This document shows, piece after piece, positions 22,971 to 42,740 of a DNA stretch of 64,000 nt. Position numbers and translations under genes: made by a program. The notes beneath the pieces are model-generated. The model was not told the DNA's origin. It did not search any database and worked only from the letters and a program-made list of their open reading frames with translations. Location: NCBI RefSeq assembly GCF_004297405.1, contig NZ_SCVC01000012.1, positions 62,001 through 126,000 on the forward strand, in the 5' to 3' direction. Position 1 is the stretch's first letter. Each line of letters opens with the position of its first letter. Origin of the DNA: Reyranella sp. (lineage in GTDB: Bacteria; Pseudomonadota; Alphaproteobacteria; Reyranellales; Reyranellaceae).

Positions 22971-23975
22971 ATGGCCAGCACGTCGAAAAAGTGGGTCCTC
23001 GGCATCGTCGTCTTGGCGTTCGTCGTACCGCTTCTGAAGCCGATCTTTCCCGACGCGATCTCGGACTATCGGCTGTTCCTGGTCAGCACCATGATCATTG
23101 CCTCGATCGCGGTGTTGGGGCTGAACCTGCTGACGGGATTCAACGGCCAGTTTTCGCTGGGCCACGGCGCCTTCTACGCAGTGGGCGCTTACACCGCCGC
23201 CGTCCTGATGGATCAATTGAGCGTGCCCTATTGGGCGACGATCCCGGCGGCGGCGATCGTCTGTTTCATCGTGGGTTACCTGTTCGGCCTGCCGGCGCTA
23301 AAGCTTGAGGGCCACTACCTCGCGTTGGCGACCTTTGCGCTCGCTTTGGCGGTGCCGCAGATCCTGAAATACAAGTGGCTCGAAGGCTTGACCGGCGGCG
23401 TGCAGGGCATCGTGCTCAACAAGCCCGAGGTGCCGTTCGGCTTGCCGCTGTCGGAAGACCAATGGCTCTACTACTTCTGCCTGGTCGTGATGGTCATCCT
23501 CTTCTGGGCGGCGGCCAACATGCTGAACAGCCGGAGCGGCCGCGCCATGATGGCGATCCGCGACCAGTATATGGCGGCCGATACGATGGGTATCGATACT
23601 GCCCTCTACAAGACGGTCACCTTCGGCATCAGCGCGGCCTATACTGGCATCGCCGGTGCGCTCTCGGCCTCGGCCATCGCTTTCGTCGCGCCCGACAGCT
23701 TCAACATCTTCCTGTCGATCAAGTTCCTGATCGGCCTGGTCGTGGGTGGCATCGGCTCGCTGACCGGCTCAGTGATCGGCGGCATTTTCTACGTGCTGGT
23801 CGACAACTCGGCGCAGGCATTGTCGCAGTTCGTGAAGAACGACCTCGGCCTGCCGTTCGACCTCTCGGCCTATACCGTGTTCGGTGTTCTGCTGATCGCC
23901 ATTATTTACCTGATGCCGATGGGAATTGCCGGCGGTCTTTTCATGGCATGGCGCAAGATCAGGGGCGCCCGGTAG
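22971..23975 (+). CDS. livM: Branched-chain/hydrophobic amino-acid ABC transporter permease LivM
   Basis: A 334-aa inner-membrane permease partner of LivH. It contains the LivM motif GLNLLTGFNGQFSLGHGAFY near residues 45-65, about ten hydrophobic helices, the coupling helix MAIRDQYMAADTMGID and GGIGSLTGSVIGG near the C terminus. The usual ATPase fusion seen in some LivM proteins is absent. Last gene of livGFHM. A hairpin (24001-24019) and the first of four binding-protein genes follow. Confidence 0.94.
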   Translation: MASTSKKWVLGIVVLAFVVPLLKPIFPDAISDYRLFLVSTMIIASIAVLGLNLLTGFNGQFSLGHGAFYAVGAYTAAVLMDQLSVPYWATIPAAAIVCFIVGYLFGLPALKLEGHYLALATFALALAVPQILKYKWLEGLTGGVQGIVLNKPEVPFGLPLSEDQWLYYFCLVVMVILFWAAANMLNSRSGRAMMAIRDQYMAADTMGIDTALYKTVTFGISAAYTGIAGALSASAIAFVAPDSFNIFLSIKFLIGLVVGGIGSLTGSVIGGIFYVLVDNSAQALSQFVKNDLGLPFDLSAYTVFGVLLIAIIYLMPMGIAGGLFMAWRKIRGAR

Positions 23976-35610: not shown

Positions 35611-35625
35611 TGCGAATCATTCGCA
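35611..35625 (+). promoter_or_regulatory. Fur-like 7-1-7 palindrome upstream of the ECF sigma gene
   Basis: TGCGAAT-C-ATTCGCA is a perfect 7-1-7 inverted repeat 21 bp before the sigma-factor start. The spacing and the T-G-x-x-A-A-T core match the classic Fur site TGATAAT-N-ATTATCA at 5 of 7 positions per arm. It would shut off the sigma gene when iron is plentiful. A near copy lies upstream of hemA at 42726. Confidence 0.7.
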
Positions 35626-35646: not shown

Positions 35647-36150
35647 GTGGCCCCGGCGGACCAGATGCTTGCGCTCTACCTGGAGCATCGCAGAGCCCTG
35701 GTGAACTACGCCAACGGCATCGTTCGTGACCGGGCAGGGGCCGAAGACGTCGTCCAGGAGGCCTACCTTCGTCTGAGCGCGGCCAGTCAGGAAATCACTC
35801 ATCCTGTAGGCTACCTCTACCGCATCGTGCGCAATCTGGCGCTCGACTGGGCGCGCCGCTCTACGACCGAGCGACCTGACGCCATGGCCCCAAGTACCCT
35901 GGAGGCCGTGCCGCACGAGGCTCCGTCGGCCGAGCATGTGCTGTTGTTCCGTGACGAATTGCGTCTCCTGCAGGAAGCGCTGGCAGAGCTGCCGGAGCGC
36001 ACCCAGACCGCCTTCCGGATGTACAGGTTGGAAGGACAAACATTGCAGCAGATTGCAAATCATCTCGGCGTTTCCGTTGTGCGTGCCCATCAGCTTGTAA
36101 AAGAGGCGATCGTCCACGCCGCCCATCGGCTCGATCGTTCCGAGCATTGA
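35647..36150 (+). CDS. fecI: ECF RNA polymerase sigma factor, FecI/PvdS-like
   Basis: A 167-aa extracytoplasmic-function sigma factor. Region 2 includes AEDVVQEAYLRLSAA and region 4 LPERTQTAFRMYRLEGQTLQ followed by a helix-turn-helix (IANHLGVSVVRAHQLVKEA). There is no region 3, as in ECF factors. The start is taken as GTG at 35647, with ATG at 35665 as an alternative. It is followed by fecR and a TonB-dependent receptor, the cell-surface-signalling arrangement. A Fur-like palindrome sits directly upstream, and promoters CCTTAAA-N15-CCGTCT before the next two genes are its probable targets. Confidence 0.9.
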   Translation: MAPADQMLALYLEHRRALVNYANGIVRDRAGAEDVVQEAYLRLSAASQEITHPVGYLYRIVRNLALDWARRSTTERPDAMAPSTLEAVPHEAPSAEHVLLFRDELRLLQEALAELPERTQTAFRMYRLEGQTLQQIANHLGVSVVRAHQLVKEAIVHAAHRLDRSEH

Positions 36151-36164
36151 TTTTTTTGAGCGAG

Positions 36165-36193
36165 CCTTAAAAGTCGGCGACGGAAACCGTCTG
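36165..36193 (+). promoter_or_regulatory. Predicted ECF-sigma promoter of fecR
   Basis: CCTTAAA (36165-36171), 15 bases, then CCGTCTG (36187-36193). The same two blocks at the same spacing recur before the receptor gene. The TAAA...CGT pattern resembles the iron-starvation promoters of PvdS/FecI-type sigma factors. The predicted transcription start would be about 20 bases before fecR. Confidence 0.7.
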
Positions 36194-36218
36194 TTCGTGT
36201 GAGGCAAAAGAGAGATCG

Positions 36219-37181
36219 GTGGACCCAGCAGCGGACGACGGAGACTTGTTGCGCGAGGAGGCTGCGGACTGGCTGCTGCGACTGCAGGCGTCGCCGGGCG
36301 ATGCGGCCGTGCGTGCCGGCGTCGACGCTTGGCTTGCCGCAAACGAAGCCCATCGCCGGGCCTATCGCAGCGTCGAGCGCGTCTGGCGCGTATCGGCTGG
36401 CCTTCCTGCGGTTGCCCCTGCGGAGATTTCCGCGATTCCTACACAGCGCGCCGGGCGCATGCGTCGCGCCATGGCCTTGGCCGGTATCGCCTTGGCGGCT
36501 TGCCTGGCGCTGTACTTCTTTCCCGCACTGCAGCTTCGTCTGCAGGCCGACCACCTGACAGGCGTCGCGGAGTTGCGCACGCTGACTCTGGATGATGGCA
36601 GCATCGTCTATCTCGACGCCGAGAGCGCCATTGCCGTCCGATACGATGCAGGACGGCGAGAGATTGCGCTGCTGGCTGGCCAGGCGTTTTTCGAGGTCGT
36701 GCCGGCAAAGGATCGGCCGTTCATCGTCACGGCCGGCGAGGTGAGCGTGACCGTCACCGGTACGGCCTTCGACGTGCGTTCGTCGGACGATAGCGTGACC
36801 GTCGGCGTGCAATCGGGGACCGTCGAGGTCCGGCTCGATCGCGGCACCCGACTGGCAGCGACGCTGACGCGTGGCGAGCGGCTCAGGGTGAGCGGTGAGG
36901 GTAGGCAGGTCGCGAAGTCGGAGATCGCGCCGGAAGACGTCGCTTCGTGGCGTGAGCGCCGCCTGATCGTCGATGGCGCGACACTAAGCGAGGTCGTCGC
37001 GGAACTGGACCGGCATCATCCTGGCCTCATCGTGCTTCGTGATCGCTCGCTCGGCGACCGTCGCATCACGGGAGTCTTCGATCTGCGTCATCCCGTCGAG
37101 GCATTGCAGGCGGTGGCGCACACGCAGCAGGCGTCTGTCGTCGAGATCACGCCCTACCTGCTGATCGTCTCGGCGCGATAA
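36219..37181 (+). CDS. fecR: FecR-family anti-sigma/signal-transducing membrane protein
   Basis: A 320-aa inner-membrane protein. The N-terminal cytoplasmic DUF4880-type domain (LLREEAADWLLRLQASPGDA and HRRAYRSVERVWR) should bind the sigma factor. One transmembrane helix (MALAGIALAACLALYFFPAL) is at about residues 87-105. The periplasmic FecR domain (TLDDGSIVYLDAESAIAV, FEVVPAKDRPFIVTAGEVSV) follows, then a C-terminal STN-like subdomain (ITGVFDLRHPVEALQAVA) that contacts the receptor. The start is GTG at 36219. It transmits receptor occupancy to the ECF sigma factor encoded just upstream. Confidence 0.9.
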   Translation: MDPAADDGDLLREEAADWLLRLQASPGDAAVRAGVDAWLAANEAHRRAYRSVERVWRVSAGLPAVAPAEISAIPTQRAGRMRRAMALAGIALAACLALYFFPALQLRLQADHLTGVAELRTLTLDDGSIVYLDAESAIAVRYDAGRREIALLAGQAFFEVVPAKDRPFIVTAGEVSVTVTGTAFDVRSSDDSVTVGVQSGTVEVRLDRGTRLAATLTRGERLRVSGEGRQVAKSEIAPEDVASWRERRLIVDGATLSEVVAELDRHHPGLIVLRDRSLGDRRITGVFDLRHPVEALQAVAHTQQASVVEITPYLLIVSAR

Positions 37182-37197
37182 AATTTTGCCGATCGTC

Positions 37198-37226
37198 CCT
37201 TAAATCCAACTTCCCTCGGCCGTCTT
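37198..37226 (+). promoter_or_regulatory. Predicted ECF-sigma promoter of the TonB-dependent receptor
   Basis: CCTTAAA (37198-37204), 15 bases, then CCGTCTT (37220-37226), identical in blocks and spacing to the element before fecR. The start codon lies about 50 bases downstream. Confidence 0.72.
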
Positions 37227-37276: not shown

Positions 37277-39682
37277 GTGTTCAAAGGCTTGTTCGTTGCC
37301 GCGATCGCGGTGGTATTGCTGAATGGAACGGTAGCGAAGGCGCAGTCCGATCGCGTATCGAATTTCGACATCACCGCGCAATCGCTTGGACAAGCTTTGA
37401 CGGCATTCGGTCGGCAATCCGGTACACAGATCGCGGTCGACACCGCATCGATCGCCGGCAAGACCAGTAGTGGCATCAATGGCGCGATGACGGCGGAGCA
37501 GGCGCTGCGGCAGCTCCTTGCCGGCACGGGATTGACCTTCCAGTTCACGTCGGCAAATGCCGTGACGGTTTCGGGGGTGCCGGGAGCGGGCTCGGGTGTC
37601 CTGCAGATCGATCCCGTGCAAGTGCAGGGCGCACATGTGCCGCAGCAGGCGATGATCGATAACATCCCGCCCCCTTACGCAGGCGGCCAGGTCGCGACGG
37701 GTGGTCAGCTCGGCTTGCTCGGCAATCGCGATGTCATGGATACGCCGTTCAACCAGACGAGCTACACGGCCAAGAAGGCGCAGGATCAACAAGCCCAGAC
37801 CGTTCGAGACGTACTGATCGACGATCCTTCGGCGCGGATGACCTACGCCGACGGCACGGCCGCCGACGATACGGTCTACATCCGCGGCTTCACCGTTCCG
37901 GCCGACACGTTCTCCTATGGCGGTCTCTACGGCATGTTGCCGACTTTCTCGGTCATGGCGGAGCTGGCGGAACGCATCGAGATCCTGAAGGGTCCCAGTG
38001 CCATGGTGAACGGCATGCCGCCGGCGACGGCAATCGGCGGCACGGTCAACATCGTCCCCAAGCGTGCACCAGACCACGACCTTACCCAGGTGACGGCCGC
38101 CTATACGTCGAACAGCCAGTTTAGCGGTCACGCCGACATTGGCCGCCGCTTCGGTTCGGACAAGCAGTTCGGCGTGCGTTTCAACGGCGTCTATCGCGGT
38201 GGCCAGACGCCGGTGGAATGGATGGCCGACACGCGGGCGTTGGCGCTGTTCGGCCTCGACTATCGCGGTGAACGAGTGCGTCTGTCGGCTGATCTTGGTT
38301 ACCAGTACCAGTACATCAGCGGCGCCCTGCCATATCTCGGCCTCTCGCCAGGCATCCCACTTCCTTGGGCTCCCAAGGCCAACTCGAACCCGGGCGAGCC
38401 CTGGAACTTCAGCGAGCGCAAGGACCTGTTCGGTGTCGTGAGAGGCGAGTTCGACCTGACCGAGCGCATCACGGCCTATGCTGCCTTTGGTGCACACGAC
38501 AACAGGCGCGCGGCCCTATCCGGTGGCGCCCGGCTGACTGTCACCAACTTCAACGGCAACGTTACCTCGTCGCCCTACAACCAGAGCGTCTACACGCAGT
38601 ATCTCACCGGCGAGGTCGGGCTGCGGGGACGTGCCGAGACCGGCCCGATCGGGCACGAGTTCGCGCTGTCAGCGACCGGGTTCCGGCGCGAGGACGGGCT
38701 CGGTGTCGTGAACGGCACGCCCTTCGCCTCCAACATCTACAATCCCACCGTCATCGCGCGACCCAATCTCGCGCAACCTCAATCCAACAAGGTGTCGTCG
38801 CTGGAGCAGAGCAGCTTCGCCATCGCCGATACGCTGACCGCCGCCGAGAAGCGCATCCAGCTCACCGTCGGCGCGCGCCTGCAGCGCGTGCAGGCCACCA
38901 ACTTCGTCGCGGCCTCGGGCGCGGTGGTCAACAGCTACGACCAAAGCGCGCTGACGCCTGCCGTCGCCCTGGTCTTCAAGCCCTGGGAGAACGTCTCGAT
39001 CTACGGCAATTTCATCCAGGGCCTGCAGCAGGGCATCGTCGTCCCGGCCAATTTCACCAACGCTGGCACGATCTTCCCACCCTACAAGTCGACGCAATTC
39101 GAGGCCGGCGTGAAGGTCGACTGGGGCAAGCTGACCACGACTGCGAGTGTCTTCCAGATCAACCAGCCGAGCGTGATCACGGACGTCGCCACCAACTCGC
39201 AAGTCTTGGCCGGGGAACAGCGCAACCAGGGGCTGGAGTTCAACTTCTTCGGCGAAGCGACGGAGGGCGTGCGCATCGTCGGTGGTGCGATGTTCCTGAG
39301 CGCCGTTCTCGCCAAGACCCAGGGTGGCCTCACGGATGGCTGGATCGCGCCGCTGACGCCCGGCGTCCAACTCAATCTCGGCACCGAAGTGGATATTCCG
39401 TTCGTGCCCGGGCTGACCTTGACCGGCCGCGCCATTTACACCGGCGCCCAGTACATCGACACGACCTATCCGCGGCGCATGCTGCCCGAATGGACGCGCT
39501 TCGACCTGGGGATGCGCTACACCTTCGACAATTTCAGAAGCCCGACCGCGAAGCCGATCACCATCCGCTTCAATGTCGACAACGTTCTCGACACGACCTA
39601 TTGGGCGGGTGGGGGCGGTGCGACCTCCTTGCTCCTGGGGGCACCGCGGACCTTCCGTCTCTCGACCTCGTTCGACTTCTGA
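37277..39682 (+). CDS. TonB-dependent siderophore receptor with STN signalling domain
   Basis: An 801-aa outer-membrane receptor. The order is a signal peptide ending near AKAQS, an STN (secretin/TonB short) domain at about residues 30-110 (FDITAQSLGQALTAFGRQSG), a plug at about 160-290 (IRGFTVPADTFSYGGLYG, RIEILKGPSAMVNGMPP, GGTVNIVPKRAP), then a 22-strand barrel ending RLSTSFDF with a terminal aromatic residue. The start codon is GTG. The STN domain marks it as a transducer for the upstream FecR/ECF pair, so binding of its ferric ligand should induce the locus. The plug resembles ferric-siderophore receptors (FpvA/FhuE-like); the actual ligand is unknown. Confidence 0.92.
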   Translation: MFKGLFVAAIAVVLLNGTVAKAQSDRVSNFDITAQSLGQALTAFGRQSGTQIAVDTASIAGKTSSGINGAMTAEQALRQLLAGTGLTFQFTSANAVTVSGVPGAGSGVLQIDPVQVQGAHVPQQAMIDNIPPPYAGGQVATGGQLGLLGNRDVMDTPFNQTSYTAKKAQDQQAQTVRDVLIDDPSARMTYADGTAADDTVYIRGFTVPADTFSYGGLYGMLPTFSVMAELAERIEILKGPSAMVNGMPPATAIGGTVNIVPKRAPDHDLTQVTAAYTSNSQFSGHADIGRRFGSDKQFGVRFNGVYRGGQTPVEWMADTRALALFGLDYRGERVRLSADLGYQYQYISGALPYLGLSPGIPLPWAPKANSNPGEPWNFSERKDLFGVVRGEFDLTERITAYAAFGAHDNRRAALSGGARLTVTNFNGNVTSSPYNQSVYTQYLTGEVGLRGRAETGPIGHEFALSATGFRREDGLGVVNGTPFASNIYNPTVIARPNLAQPQSNKVSSLEQSSFAIADTLTAAEKRIQLTVGARLQRVQATNFVAASGAVVNSYDQSALTPAVALVFKPWENVSIYGNFIQGLQQGIVVPANFTNAGTIFPPYKSTQFEAGVKVDWGKLTTTASVFQINQPSVITDVATNSQVLAGEQRNQGLEFNFFGEATEGVRIVGGAMFLSAVLAKTQGGLTDGWIAPLTPGVQLNLGTEVDIPFVPGLTLTGRAIYTGAQYIDTTYPRRMLPEWTRFDLGMRYTFDNFRSPTAKPITIRFNVDNVLDTTYWAGGGGATSLLLGAPRTFRLSTSFDF

Positions 39683-39708: not shown

Positions 39709-40116
39709 TCAGCCGACGACGAAACTCTGATACATGAACTGCAGGTCCTGGCTTTCCTGCGGGGTGATCTCGCCGTCGAGGACACGCGCTTCCCAGTTCC
39801 TGAGTTTGCGCTTGATGTCGGCCGGTGTGCGTGGGCTCAGCAGCACCATGAAGAATTGCTCATGGGGCGAGAGATCACGTTCGCGCCGATAGCCGAAGGG
39901 GCCGGCGCTGACGGCACGCGGCGGCGGTTCCGACGGTAGGGCGGGTGTGGAAGCCGAGCGGGGAAGCACCGCCGTGTCGATCACCTGATCCCACGTGAGA
40001 CCCGCCTCGCGCACCATGGCCGAAGCAAGTTTTGCGGCTGCCAGCGCCTCTTCGGCGTGGCTGCTGTCCAGGATCTCCAGAACCTTGACCAAGGTGTTAC
40101 GATTAAAGGTCGACAC
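39709..40116 (-). CDS. Hypothetical protein with DUF2786-like N terminus
   Basis: A 135-aa soluble protein, GTG start at 40116. Residues 8-45 (KVLEILDSSHAEEALAAAKL followed by ASAMVREAGL) resemble the short helical segment seen in DUF2786-type proteins. A Pro/Ser-rich linker (about 53-70) follows, then a C-terminal helical part (RDLSPHEQFFMVLLSPRTPA, IKRKLRNWEARVLDGEIT). No transmembrane segment or signal is visible. It is convergent with the receptor gene (26-bp gap) and divergent from the MFS gene. Function not known. Confidence 0.7.
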   Translation of the reverse strand: MSTFNRNTLVKVLEILDSSHAEEALAAAKLASAMVREAGLTWDQVIDTAVLPRSASTPALPSEPPPRAVSAGPFGYRRERDLSPHEQFFMVLLSPRTPADIKRKLRNWEARVLDGEITPQESQDLQFMYQSFVVG

Positions 40117-40187: not shown

Positions 40188-41429
40188 TTGGATCAAGCCA
40201 AGAGCCCACCGCCTTCTCCCGACGCTTCTTCGGCCTTTCCCGTCTACCTCGCCGGCCTCGGCACCTGGTTCGTGCCGCTCGGCATCCAGATGGTGCTGTT
40301 CCCGTGGCTGGTCGCGGTGGTGCTGCGCATGGACGCCTTTGCCGTCGGTGTCGCGCAGGCGGCCGTCATGGCGCCCTCGCTGCTGTTCCTGCCGCTGGGT
40401 GGCTTGGTCGCCGACCGCGGTAACCCGCGTCGCTTGCTGCTGCTCTATCACATGCTCTATGCAGCACCTCCGCTGGCGCTGGCGGCGCTGCTGTGGTCGG
40501 GCGGGCAGGGCGCGCTCAGCTATCCGCTGCTGATCGCCTACGGTATTGCCGCTGGCGCGATCGGCGCGTTCGCCATCCCGACACGCGATGCGTTGCTGCC
40601 GGTGGTCGCGACGAAAGGGGCGTTGCCGCGCGCGGTGGCGCTGGCCACGGCGCTCCAGTTCGGCGGTCAGCTCCTAGGCATCGGCTTCGCCTCGTCAGCC
40701 GACCGCTTCGGCGCCGTGCCTCTCCTGTTGCTGCATGCTGGCATGGTGTTGGTGGGCTGCCTTGCCGTGAGGAAGCTGCCTGATCCACCCCCGCATCCGC
40801 CAGGCGCCCACGCCGGCTTCTGGCGCAGTGTCGGTGAGGGCGTATCGGCGGCGGCCAAGTCGGACCAGATCTGGCCGGTGCTCCTGCTGAACTTCGGCGT
40901 CGGCGTCTTCTATGTCGGGCCATTCATGGCCGTGCTGCCGCTGGTCGTGCGCGACAACTATCACGGCGGCGCGCTCGAACTTTCCTATGTCAACTTGGCC
41001 TTCTGGGCGGCGACCATCGTGGCCAGCATGGCGCTGGTCGGCCTGGCGCGACGCTTCACCTTGCGCGGCCGGTTGATCGGCGTCGCGGTGATGGTCGGGG
41101 CAGGGGTGCTGTTCGCCATGGCGACGCTGCCGCCGTTCCCGGTGTTCGTGGCGCTGAACTTCGTCTGGGGCATCGGCGCCGGCATCACCATGACGCAGAG
41201 CCGTACGGTGGTGCAGATCGTGGCGCCGGCGACGCATCGGGCCCGCCTGATGTCGCTTTTCCAGCTAGGCTTGAGCGGTGGCGGCCCGATCGGCGCTTTC
41301 CTGACGGGAACGATCTGTTCGATGTGGGGCCTGAAGACGGCGATGCTGCTGCCGGCCGTGGCCATGCTCCTGCTGATCGGTGTCGTGCTGGTCCGCTCGC
41401 GCCTCTGGACGATGCGGACGGTGGAGTAG
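40188..41429 (+). CDS. MFS transporter (MFS_3/EntS-like)
   Basis: A 413-aa major-facilitator protein with 12 hydrophobic helices. The loop 2-3 motif LGGLVADRGNPRRLLL matches the MFS signature, and the overall pattern resembles EntS-like exporters. The start is taken as TTG at 40188, since no in-frame ATG lies before the first helix (FPVYLAGLGTWFVPLGIQMV). It follows the iron-uptake locus, so siderophore export is possible but not shown; no siderophore biosynthesis genes are in the window. Its stop lies 3 bp from the stop of the convergent hemA gene. Confidence 0.85.
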   Translation: MDQAKSPPPSPDASSAFPVYLAGLGTWFVPLGIQMVLFPWLVAVVLRMDAFAVGVAQAAVMAPSLLFLPLGGLVADRGNPRRLLLLYHMLYAAPPLALAALLWSGGQGALSYPLLIAYGIAAGAIGAFAIPTRDALLPVVATKGALPRAVALATALQFGGQLLGIGFASSADRFGAVPLLLLHAGMVLVGCLAVRKLPDPPPHPPGAHAGFWRSVGEGVSAAAKSDQIWPVLLLNFGVGVFYVGPFMAVLPLVVRDNYHGGALELSYVNLAFWAATIVASMALVGLARRFTLRGRLIGVAVMVGAGVLFAMATLPPFPVFVALNFVWGIGAGITMTQSRTVVQIVAPATHRARLMSLFQLGLSGGGPIGAFLTGTICSMWGLKTAMLLPAVAMLLLIGVVLVRSRLWTMRTVE

Positions 41430-41432
41430 TCG

Positions 41433-42656
41433 CTACTCCGCTGCTGCCTTCGAGGCGAGGCCCAGCGTCTGCCAGACATCCTGGAGAGCGTCGACCAGCC
41501 GTGCCATATCCTCGTCACCGTGCAACGGCGTCGGGGTGAGGCGCAGCCGTTCGGTGCCGCGCGGCACCGTCGGGTAATTGATCGGCTGCACGTAGATCGC
41601 ATGGCGCTCCATCAGCAGGTCGCTTGCCTGCTTGCAGAGCCCAGCGTCGCCCACGAACACCGGCACGATGTGCGTGACCGAGGGCATTACCGGCAGGCCG
41701 GCGGCGGCAAGGCGGCGCTTCAGGGTCGCGGCGCGTTCCTGGTGGCGCACGCGCAACTCCGGTTGGTTGCGCACGAGGCGCACGCTGGCGAGCGCCGCCG
41801 CGGCGATGGCCGGCGGCAGCGACGTCGTAAAGATGAAGCCCGAGCCACAGGAGCGCACGAAGTCGACCGTGGCCTCGGTCGAGGCGATGTAACCACCCAC
41901 GACGCCAAAGGCTTTGGCGAGCGTCGCCTGCACGATATCGACCTTGTCGAGCGCACCGTCGCGTTCGGCGACACCGCCGCCGCTGTCGCCGTACATGCCC
42001 ACGGCATGGACTTCATCGAGATAGGTGAGGGCGCCGTAGCGATGGGCGACGTCGCAGATCTCGTTGATCGGCGAAATGTCGCCATCCATCGAGTAGACCG
42101 ACTCGAAAGCCACGATCTTGGGCGTCGCGGGATCGGCCGCGGCCAGCAACTCCTCGAGGTGGCGTACGTCGTTGTGGCGGAAGATCTTGCGCACGGCGCC
42201 CGAGTGGCGGATGCCCGCGATCATCGAGGCGTGGTTGAAGGCGTCGGAGTAGAGCTCACAGCCGGGCAGCATGGCGCCGAGCGTTTGCAGGGTCGTCTCG
42301 TTGGCGACATAGCCCGAGGTGAAAACGAGGGCCGCCTGCTTGTTGTGGAGGGCGGCCAGCTCGCGCTCGAGCGCGGCGTGTAGCGTGTTGGTGCCGGAGA
42401 TGTTGCGCGTACCACCAGCGCCTGATCCCTGGGCGCCAATCGCGGCCTGCATCGCCTCCACGACGGCGGGATGCTGGCCCATGGCGAGATAGTCGTTGCT
42501 GCACCAGACGGTGACGTCGCGTGGCGGCTGGCCTTCGCGATGTAGACGCGCCCGCGGGAAGGCGCCCACGATCCGCTCCAGCTCGGCGAAGACACGATAT
42601 CGTCCTTCGTCGCGCAGGCGTCCGAGATGGCCGGTGAAGAATGCCTCGTAATCCAT
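41433..42656 (-). CDS. hemA: 5-aminolevulinate synthase
   Basis: A 407-aa PLP enzyme that condenses glycine and succinyl-CoA to 5-aminolevulinate, the C4 route to haem used by alphaproteobacteria. It shows [20 protein letters not shown] at the N terminus, [26 protein letters not shown], the cofactor-binding [10 protein letters not shown], the PLP-lysine segment [14 protein letters not shown] and [13 protein letters not shown]. The ATG at 42656 matches the family start; a GTG at 42698 would add 14 residues. The upstream 90 bases hold a Fur-like palindrome and a pair of 10-bp direct repeats, consistent with iron control of haem synthesis. Confidence 0.95.
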
Positions 42657-42664
42657 CGAGGCCG

Positions 42665-42708
42665 ATTTTAGTCGTGTTGCCGCTTCTAAAGCAGACACAT
42701 TTTAGTCG
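42665..42708 (-). repeat. Direct repeat pair flanking an Irr-like half-site upstream of hemA
   Basis: The 10-mer CGACTAAAAT (minus strand) occurs twice, at 42699-42708 and 42665-42674. Between them GCTTTAGAAGC (42682-42692) is a short inverted repeat containing TTTAGAA, which resembles an Irr/ICE half-site. Only one half-site is seen, so Irr binding is uncertain. The repeats lie in the hemA 5' region. Confidence 0.45.
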
Positions 42709-42725: not shown

Positions 42726-42740
42726 TGCGAATCGCTCGCA
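42726..42740 (-). promoter_or_regulatory. Degenerate Fur-like palindrome upstream of hemA
   Basis: TGCGAAT-C-GCTCGCA on the plus strand differs at two bases from the perfect palindrome before the ECF sigma gene (35611). It lies 70 bp upstream of the hemA start. Shared sequence with the iron-locus site suggests the same regulator. Confidence 0.55.

Follow-up and report, generated by a model that had tools for sequence, protein, structure and literature searches.

Matched candidate promoters before the anti-sigma and siderophore receptor genes of a FecI-type locus in Reyranella

Introduction

Which genes does an iron-sensing sigma factor of the FecI type transcribe, and by what sequence would it find them? 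The locus considered here lies in a stretch of 64,000 nucleotides of Reyranella sp. (contig NZ_SCVC01000012.1, positions 62,001 to 126,000), hereafter called the window. It comprises fecI, fecR and the gene of a TonB-dependent receptor, in this order and all on the + strand. A sequence-only reading of the window had noticed that the same two blocks, CCTTAAA and CCGTCT, stand 15 bases apart both before fecR and before the receptor gene, and had taken the two sites for promoters. Here, we compared this locus with other FecI-type loci of the genus and of the class. The comparison indicates that the two sites are very probably the switches by which a single iron-sensing sigma factor turns on its anti-sigma gene and a siderophore receptor gene. 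A predicted two-promoter layout of this kind, with a sequence largely private to each locus, is found again in most of the related loci that were compared.

Methods

The sigma protein of the locus was searched against 41 genomes of the genus, its own included, at a cut-off of 1e-10, and it gave matches in 17 of them. The 65 rows correspond to 64 places, one sigma gene being spread over two rows, and 60 of the 64 places were taken, with the four weakest rows left out. Three more stretches of the own genome, which hold FecR without FecI or repeat L106, were left uncounted. fecI is followed by fecR in 60 of 60 loci, and 57 of these, from 15 genomes, also reach the receptor gene. A second set was drawn from 289 genomes of the class (L114-L139) and from contigs of named genomes (L140-L188), the weaker L189-L219 being left out; most of its named loci belong to Pseudomonas or to Alphaproteobacteria other than Reyranella, and a few are additional Reyranella loci. 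fecI and fecR are adjacent in 72 of its 75 loci, and 58 remain after 14 near-duplicates were dropped.

Promoters were scored with a register-fixed model of the form (-35 5-mer)-N16-CGTC. The fecR and receptor promoters of a locus were each chosen on their own, by a model trained on the other loci (orthologues of the locus included), and a promoter was called at 6 bits or more. Selection with a bonus for pair similarity is circular; it is not taken as evidence for matching and was superseded by this leave-one-locus-out choice. A reduced model was made from 82 promoters of other loci, without this locus and eight of its closest relatives. The model-free pair test takes the best common 7-N(13-18)-6 block between two gaps and compares gaps of the same locus with gaps of different loci. 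The relation between the sigma factors and their promoters was analysed segment by segment over 91 non-redundant sigmas, drawn from 101 loci whose promoter was usable, with a correction for the remainder of the protein. An earlier mutual-information run over 47 loci was noisy and has been superseded by these larger covariation analyses.

Results

The locus is an ordinary Reyranella cell-surface-signalling set, which consists of a FecI-type sigma factor, FecR and a FemA-like receptor (Table 1). The sigma factor has sigma-70 regions 2 and 4, and its gene is followed by those of FecR and of a TonB-dependent receptor, as expected of a FecI-type ECF sigma factor. Its score against the E. coli FecI equivalog NF041727, 55.6 bits, is below the cut-off of 260, and it is a relative of E. 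coli FecI rather than FecI itself. The solved relatives of FecR are two putative anti-sigma chains (4m0n and 4m0h) and chain R of 6ovk, and a membrane segment can be placed, by eye only, at about residues 84-104. The receptor passes TIGR01783 with 302.5 bits (cut-off 223.5), and its STN, plug and barrel parts are those of a TonB-dependent transducer. Among solved structures, it is closest to the mycobactin receptor FemA (8s34, E 6.2e-162, residues 25-801), with BauA next, and its signalling part matches HasR weakly. FemA belongs to Pseudomonas aeruginosa, where it works with FemI and FemR. After the receptor gene there is a frame of 135 amino acids on the - strand (39709-40116), which has no Pfam or NCBIfam match, and then an MFS transporter gene on the + strand (40188-41429) with a weak match to EntS.

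Table 1 Features of the FecI-type locus, in positions of the window.
Feature	Position	Strand	Remarks
Fur-type 7-1-7 palindrome TGCGAATCATTCGCA	35611-35625		exact, upstream of the sigma gene; would be the iron gate of fecI
fecI-type ECF sigma gene	35647-36150	+	167 aa from GTG at 35647 (start provisional); Pfam Sigma70_r2, r4, r4_2
Terminator-like hairpin (uncertain), end of fecI	36129-36145	+	seven-T run at 36151-36157, after the stop codon
fecR promoter (predicted), CCTTAAA-N15-CCGTCT	36165-36192	+	exact match; core TTAAA-N16-CGTC
fecR, anti-sigma / sigma regulator	36219-37181	+	320 aa; DUF4880 and FecR domain, both above cut-off
A/T tract, presumably UP-element-like	37179-37187	+	ends 10 nt before the receptor -35
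Receptor-gene promoter (predicted), CCTTAAA-N15-CCGTCT	37198-37225	+	exact match
TonB-dependent siderophore receptor/transducer, FemA-like	37277-39682	+	801 aa; N-terminal STN signalling domain, plug, barrel

The genome of this strain carries 13 FecI-type loci, as found by one search. Three of its 16 FecR-domain matches have no counterpart among the 13 FecI-type matches, namely L111 (G000:C44:309783-310058), L112 (G000:C15:24942-25166) and L022 (G000:C20:306281-306541, in a frame of 1014 amino acids), and no FecI-type gene was seen near L111 and L112 in the surrounding stretches that were read.

Both blocks and the 15-base spacing agree exactly between the two sites. The site before fecR reads CCTTAAA-AGTCGGCGACGGAAA-CCGTCT and the site before the receptor gene reads CCTTAAA-TCCAACTTCCCTCGG-CCGTCT, so that the spacers have the same length and different sequences. 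The sites stand directly before the two genes, as had been claimed, with 14 bases between the fecI stop codon and the first site, and 16 bases between the fecR stop codon and the second. The span originally given for the pair, 36165-37226, is right at its start and has to be corrected at its end, since the second site stops at 37225. The pattern is expected 0.00 times by chance in the window (100 dinucleotide shuffles). The genome scan that had been proposed as a check found two exact sites in 6,464,269 bases, both at this locus, and the pattern read backward, used as a control, has none. Among 61 genomes (its own and 60 relatives), the exact pattern occurs in five, all of the same genus; each of the other four has one site, which starts CCTTAAAAGTCG as does the fecR site here. 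Two copies 1 kb apart could have arisen by local duplication, or could be a chance match devoid of function, an explanation that we find scarcely credible given the unrelated spacers, the chance expectation and the recurrence of the blocks in relatives.

Scored with the reduced model, the fecR and receptor sites rank 2nd and 4th of the 127,940 positions of the window, where ranks 1 and 3 fall at 22982 and 26992. With up to two mismatches, the genome has 31 sites compared with 72 for the backward control, and there is therefore no sign of a wider regulon for CCTTAAA-N15-CCGTCT. The sole copy with one mismatch, L220 (G000:C6:90686-90713), is probably a chance match. It overlaps the end of a fadD-like frame, and a dienelactone-hydrolase-like frame starts 28 nt on (both names by eye).

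The iron-starvation box of PvdS is TAAAT-N16/17-CGT, and the two sites had been likened to promoters of this kind. That likeness stands as a loose relationship only, in which an A-rich -35 and the CGT of the -10 are shared while the -35 bases partly differ. Set against this box, the receptor site holds TTAAAT and CGT, and the fecR site TTAAAA and CGT. The core is better described as TTAAA-N16-CGTC, of the FecI class.

The pairing of the two sites recurs in other loci. In the model-free test (54 loci), the gap between fecI and fecR and the gap between fecR and the receptor gene have a best common block of 23.3 when they come from the same locus and of 19.4 when they come from different loci (z 13.1, 0 of 2000 permutations). 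The stretch upstream of fecI shows no pairing with either gap in this test (z 1.0 and 1.1). Three of the four coding-DNA controls are null as well (z -0.2, -0.6 and 0.3), and the fourth, the fecR coding sequence with the first gap, is not null (z 3.8). When the promoters were chosen separately by leave-one-locus-out models, both were called in 47 of the 57 Reyranella loci; the ten loci that miss one or both calls include L064, L067 and L106 of the 13 in the own genome. At L104 (G025:C38), where the sigma gene is split over two frames, both promoters of this type are still present. The fecR and receptor promoters of one locus share the same -35 5-mer in 32 of 47 cases, compared with 11% between loci and 7% if the sigmas are less than 60% identical. 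Within-locus concordance is high for the -35 (z 10.7) and the -10 (z 7.1) and absent from the mid-spacer (z -0.2), although the spacer edges are also concordant (z 3.2). The second set repeats this result, with both promoters called in 36 of 58 loci, identical -35 5-mers in 20 of these 36 (again compared with 11%) and z values of 7.9, 5.1 and 1.3 for the -35, the -10 and the spacer, respectively. The claim that the sites are promoters is thus borne out indirectly, at the level of sequence, by separately chosen fecR and receptor promoters that match within loci and by mid-spacers that do not.

A score of at least 9 is reached by 46 of 57 fecR regions and by 46 of 57 receptor regions with the leave-one-locus-out models. 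Scored with the reduced model, the control stretches of the 57 loci reach it in 0 cases upstream of fecI, in 4 within fecR and in 2 within the receptor gene, and they reach 6 bits in 7, 6 and 7 cases, respectively; upstream of fecI in the second set, at least 6 bits are found in 8 of 58. A spacer of N16 is favoured, being found in 54 of 94 called fecR sites (115 loci) and in 49 of 101 receptor sites (113 loci), with a model that was itself trained at N16. The Reyranella model, this locus included, finds GGAAAAT-N15-TGTC in the fecR-fecA gap of E. coli with 12.3 bits, the next position having 0.4. The accessible part of a review describes the promoter in front of fecA as a FecI target that was studied experimentally (PMC9249621). 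The sites have the form of FecI-dependent promoters, with an A-rich -35, a CGT-type -10 and a favoured spacing, and this form fits the E. coli fecA region too. As a separate observation, the A+T content peaks at -20 to -12 before the receptor -35 elements (92 promoters, both sets), in the manner of an UP element, and a weaker peak precedes the fecR promoters (85 sites).

It could be argued that the receptor site alone is active, and that the fecR site is a decoy or a relic, fecR being reached by read-through from fecI. In E. coli, unlike here, fecI and fecR overlap. According to the same review, they are co-transcribed from a Fur-controlled promoter without autoregulation, only fecA being sigma-driven (PMC9249621). 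As for the hairpin at the end of fecI, shuffled sequences would give 1.2 and 1 was found, so that it does not exceed chance. A terminator conserved between fecI and fecR was considered and rejected; by eye, a hairpin is present in L054 and absent from eight other relatives compared. Read-through past the hairpin is therefore possible. The fecR site nevertheless stays in step with the receptor site across loci. Where at least 45 nt lie between the fecI stop and the beginning of fecR homology, the fecR promoter is called (6 bits) in 46 of 54 Reyranella loci and in 41 of 50 loci of the second set. Where the gap is shorter, 0 of 8 second-set loci have such a call. Three Reyranella loci with a gap of 4 nt (L075, L078 and L087) have it in 3 of 3 cases, inside the 3' coding end of fecI. 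We regard a silent fecR site as unlikely, and fecR here is predicted to have its own matched promoter.

The 10-residue segment of the sigma factor whose identity best predicts -35 similarity is 137-146 of the 161-residue frame, which corresponds to 143-152 of the 167-residue protein. This segment, S143-K152 (SVVRAHQLVK), is the recognition helix of region 4.2, and its partial r of 0.245 is reached by 0 of 300 permutations. Spacer similarity has no comparable peak along the sigma factor, the largest value being 0.078. Among 1727 pairs of one residue and one base, the strongest joins residue 149 to the first base of the -35 5-mer, and the third strongest joins residue 145 to the second base. Arg at position 149 goes with G in 14 of 20 cases, Gln with T in 20.5 of 24, Lys with T in 7.5 of 8 and Glu with C in 6.5 of 7. 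Gln at position 148 goes with G as the third base in 6.5 of 7 cases, and His at this position also goes with G in 12 of 78. Aligned with sigma-E of E. coli K-12, residue 149 lies opposite S172 and residue 148 opposite R171, both of which touch -35 bases in the sigma-E complex, as stated in the portion of that report available to us (PMC6713349). Residues 95 and 126, outside the helix, also give z 9.8 and 8.8 with the second base of the -35, and pairs of sigma residues with spacer bases reach z 4.9; shared ancestry therefore contributes to the signal. The -10 element covaries best with sigma residues 126-135, which belong to region 4, whereas region 2 would be expected.

The sequence-only reading had also proposed that the pair gives a specific recognition sequence for this sigma factor, and the covariation of the -35 with the recognition helix, together with the match in the E. 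coli fecR-fecA gap, lends indirect weight to that proposal. The same two results bear on the possibility that the sites are operators of another DNA-binding regulator. Paired sites before both genes could bind such a regulator, and the likeness found is one of sequence. An operator is very unlikely, when one considers that the -35 element varies together with the recognition helix of the sigma factor, that the same model matches the E. coli gap, and that N16 is favoured between the A-rich -35 and the CGT (with the model trained at N16). We conclude, with a probability of roughly 0.85, that the two sites would serve as -35/-10 promoters for RNA polymerase carrying the FecI-type sigma factor encoded upstream.

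fecI itself is without a sigma-type promoter of this kind and has the Fur-type palindrome instead. A palindrome TGCGAATnATTCGCA (at least 11 of 14 positions), which we take to be the Fur box, precedes the sigma gene in 57 of 57 Reyranella loci. It is found in 0 of 57 control stretches, in 0 of 54 fecI-fecR gaps and in 4 of 57 receptor gaps. Loci of the second set have it before the sigma gene in 29 of 58 cases, compared with 1 of 58 controls. fecI thus has the box palindrome before it that would mark a Fur-regulated gene. Elsewhere in the window, a second Fur-like palindrome TGCGAATCGCTCGCA (42726-42740), with 2 mismatches, stands 27 nt before a 5-aminolevulinate-synthase-like gene (41433-42698, - strand; named by eye).

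The promoters are largely, and not completely, private to their loci. In the seven genomes with three or more usable loci, 29.3 of the 39 fecR promoters (with ties divided) have the receptor promoter of the same locus as their best match in the genome, compared with 7.0 by chance and 7.7 for the spacer control. In the own genome, the partner is the best match for only 6.0 of 10 fecR promoters. Among the -35 elements called in this genome are CTTAAA (this locus), GTTAAG, GTTAAA, GGAAAA, CTGAAA and GTAGAA. TTAAA is also used by L068, which is therefore a near neighbour of this locus. Compared with the other FecI-type loci of its genome, 13 in all, this locus has a combination of -35 and -10 that is largely its own, and cross-talk should therefore be limited. 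The sigma modules of P. aeruginosa are described as insulated in the accessible part of one report (PMC4362757).

Discussion

The locus resembles FecI-FecR-FecA of E. coli in gene order and in domains, and also in having a presumably Fur-controlled sigma gene and a presumably sigma-driven receptor promoter, as far as the available text on E. coli goes (PMC9249621). In the predicted promoter of the anti-sigma gene it is closer to HasI-HasS-HasR of Serratia marcescens, where the sigma factor drives the anti-sigma gene and not itself; the accessible part of the review sets sigma-driven anti-sigma genes apart as the HasI/HasS case, and contrasts this haem/haemophore system with other iron sigma factors (PMC9249621). 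The present locus appears to have the same feedback layout, with a sigma-type promoter before the anti-sigma gene and none before the sigma gene, although its receptor is of the siderophore type and many paralogues show the same layout. A report on Stenotrophomonas maltophilia (S. maltophilia) describes the hemI promoter as free of autoregulation, in line with a fecI that lacks the motif here, and the three genes as one operon, which fits less well (PMC12772443). Results from Sinorhizobium meliloti (S. meliloti) also fit less simply. In the text available, transcription starts were mapped before fecR and before the receptor gene with no motif recognised there, and overexpression of FecI altered neither gene (PMC6180224). 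We count these results against the promoter reading.

The following mechanism can be proposed. When iron is low, a Fur-type repressor would leave the palindrome upstream of fecI, and fecI would be transcribed from a housekeeping promoter. Its product would be held by FecR in the inner membrane. A ferric siderophore bound to the FemA-like receptor would cause the STN domain to signal to FecR, and FecI would be released or activated. FecI would then read TTAAA by its region-4.2 recognition helix, and CGTC at the -10, and would transcribe both fecR and the receptor gene from the matched promoters. Induction of the anti-sigma gene together with the receptor would constitute a negative feedback and a fast off-switch, and the sigma gene would not be self-amplifying because fecI lacks the motif. 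Transcription starts, dependence on the sigma factor, Fur binding and the siderophore signal are all steps that we infer. What the sequences themselves show is that the two sites match, that such matching recurs in other loci and does not extend upstream of fecI, that the palindrome is present, and that promoters and sigma factors covary. The whole picture is built on sequence comparison, and it is the general pattern that lifts the finding, the locus itself being ordinary.

It seems reasonably likely that this general pattern holds in Reyranella and in many Proteobacteria: a common Fur gate, private pairs of anti-sigma and receptor promoters, a feedback that is common and not a HasI/HasS exception, and a -35 that is read by a few residues of the helix in a learnable code (at 149, R for G, Q or K for T and E for C). 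Among the papers listed by the literature searches, we saw none that describes private pairs of fecR and receptor promoters in FecI paralogues. With 13 FecI-type loci in one genome, how cross-talk is avoided is a real question. The loci provide dozens of natural pairs of sigma factor and promoter, each with two promoters and with the spacer as an internal control, and such pairs make the recognition code between sigma region 4 and the -35 directly testable. This code may predict the targets of uncharacterised FecI factors from sequence, and the pattern would change the view of which gene is subject to feedback in such systems.
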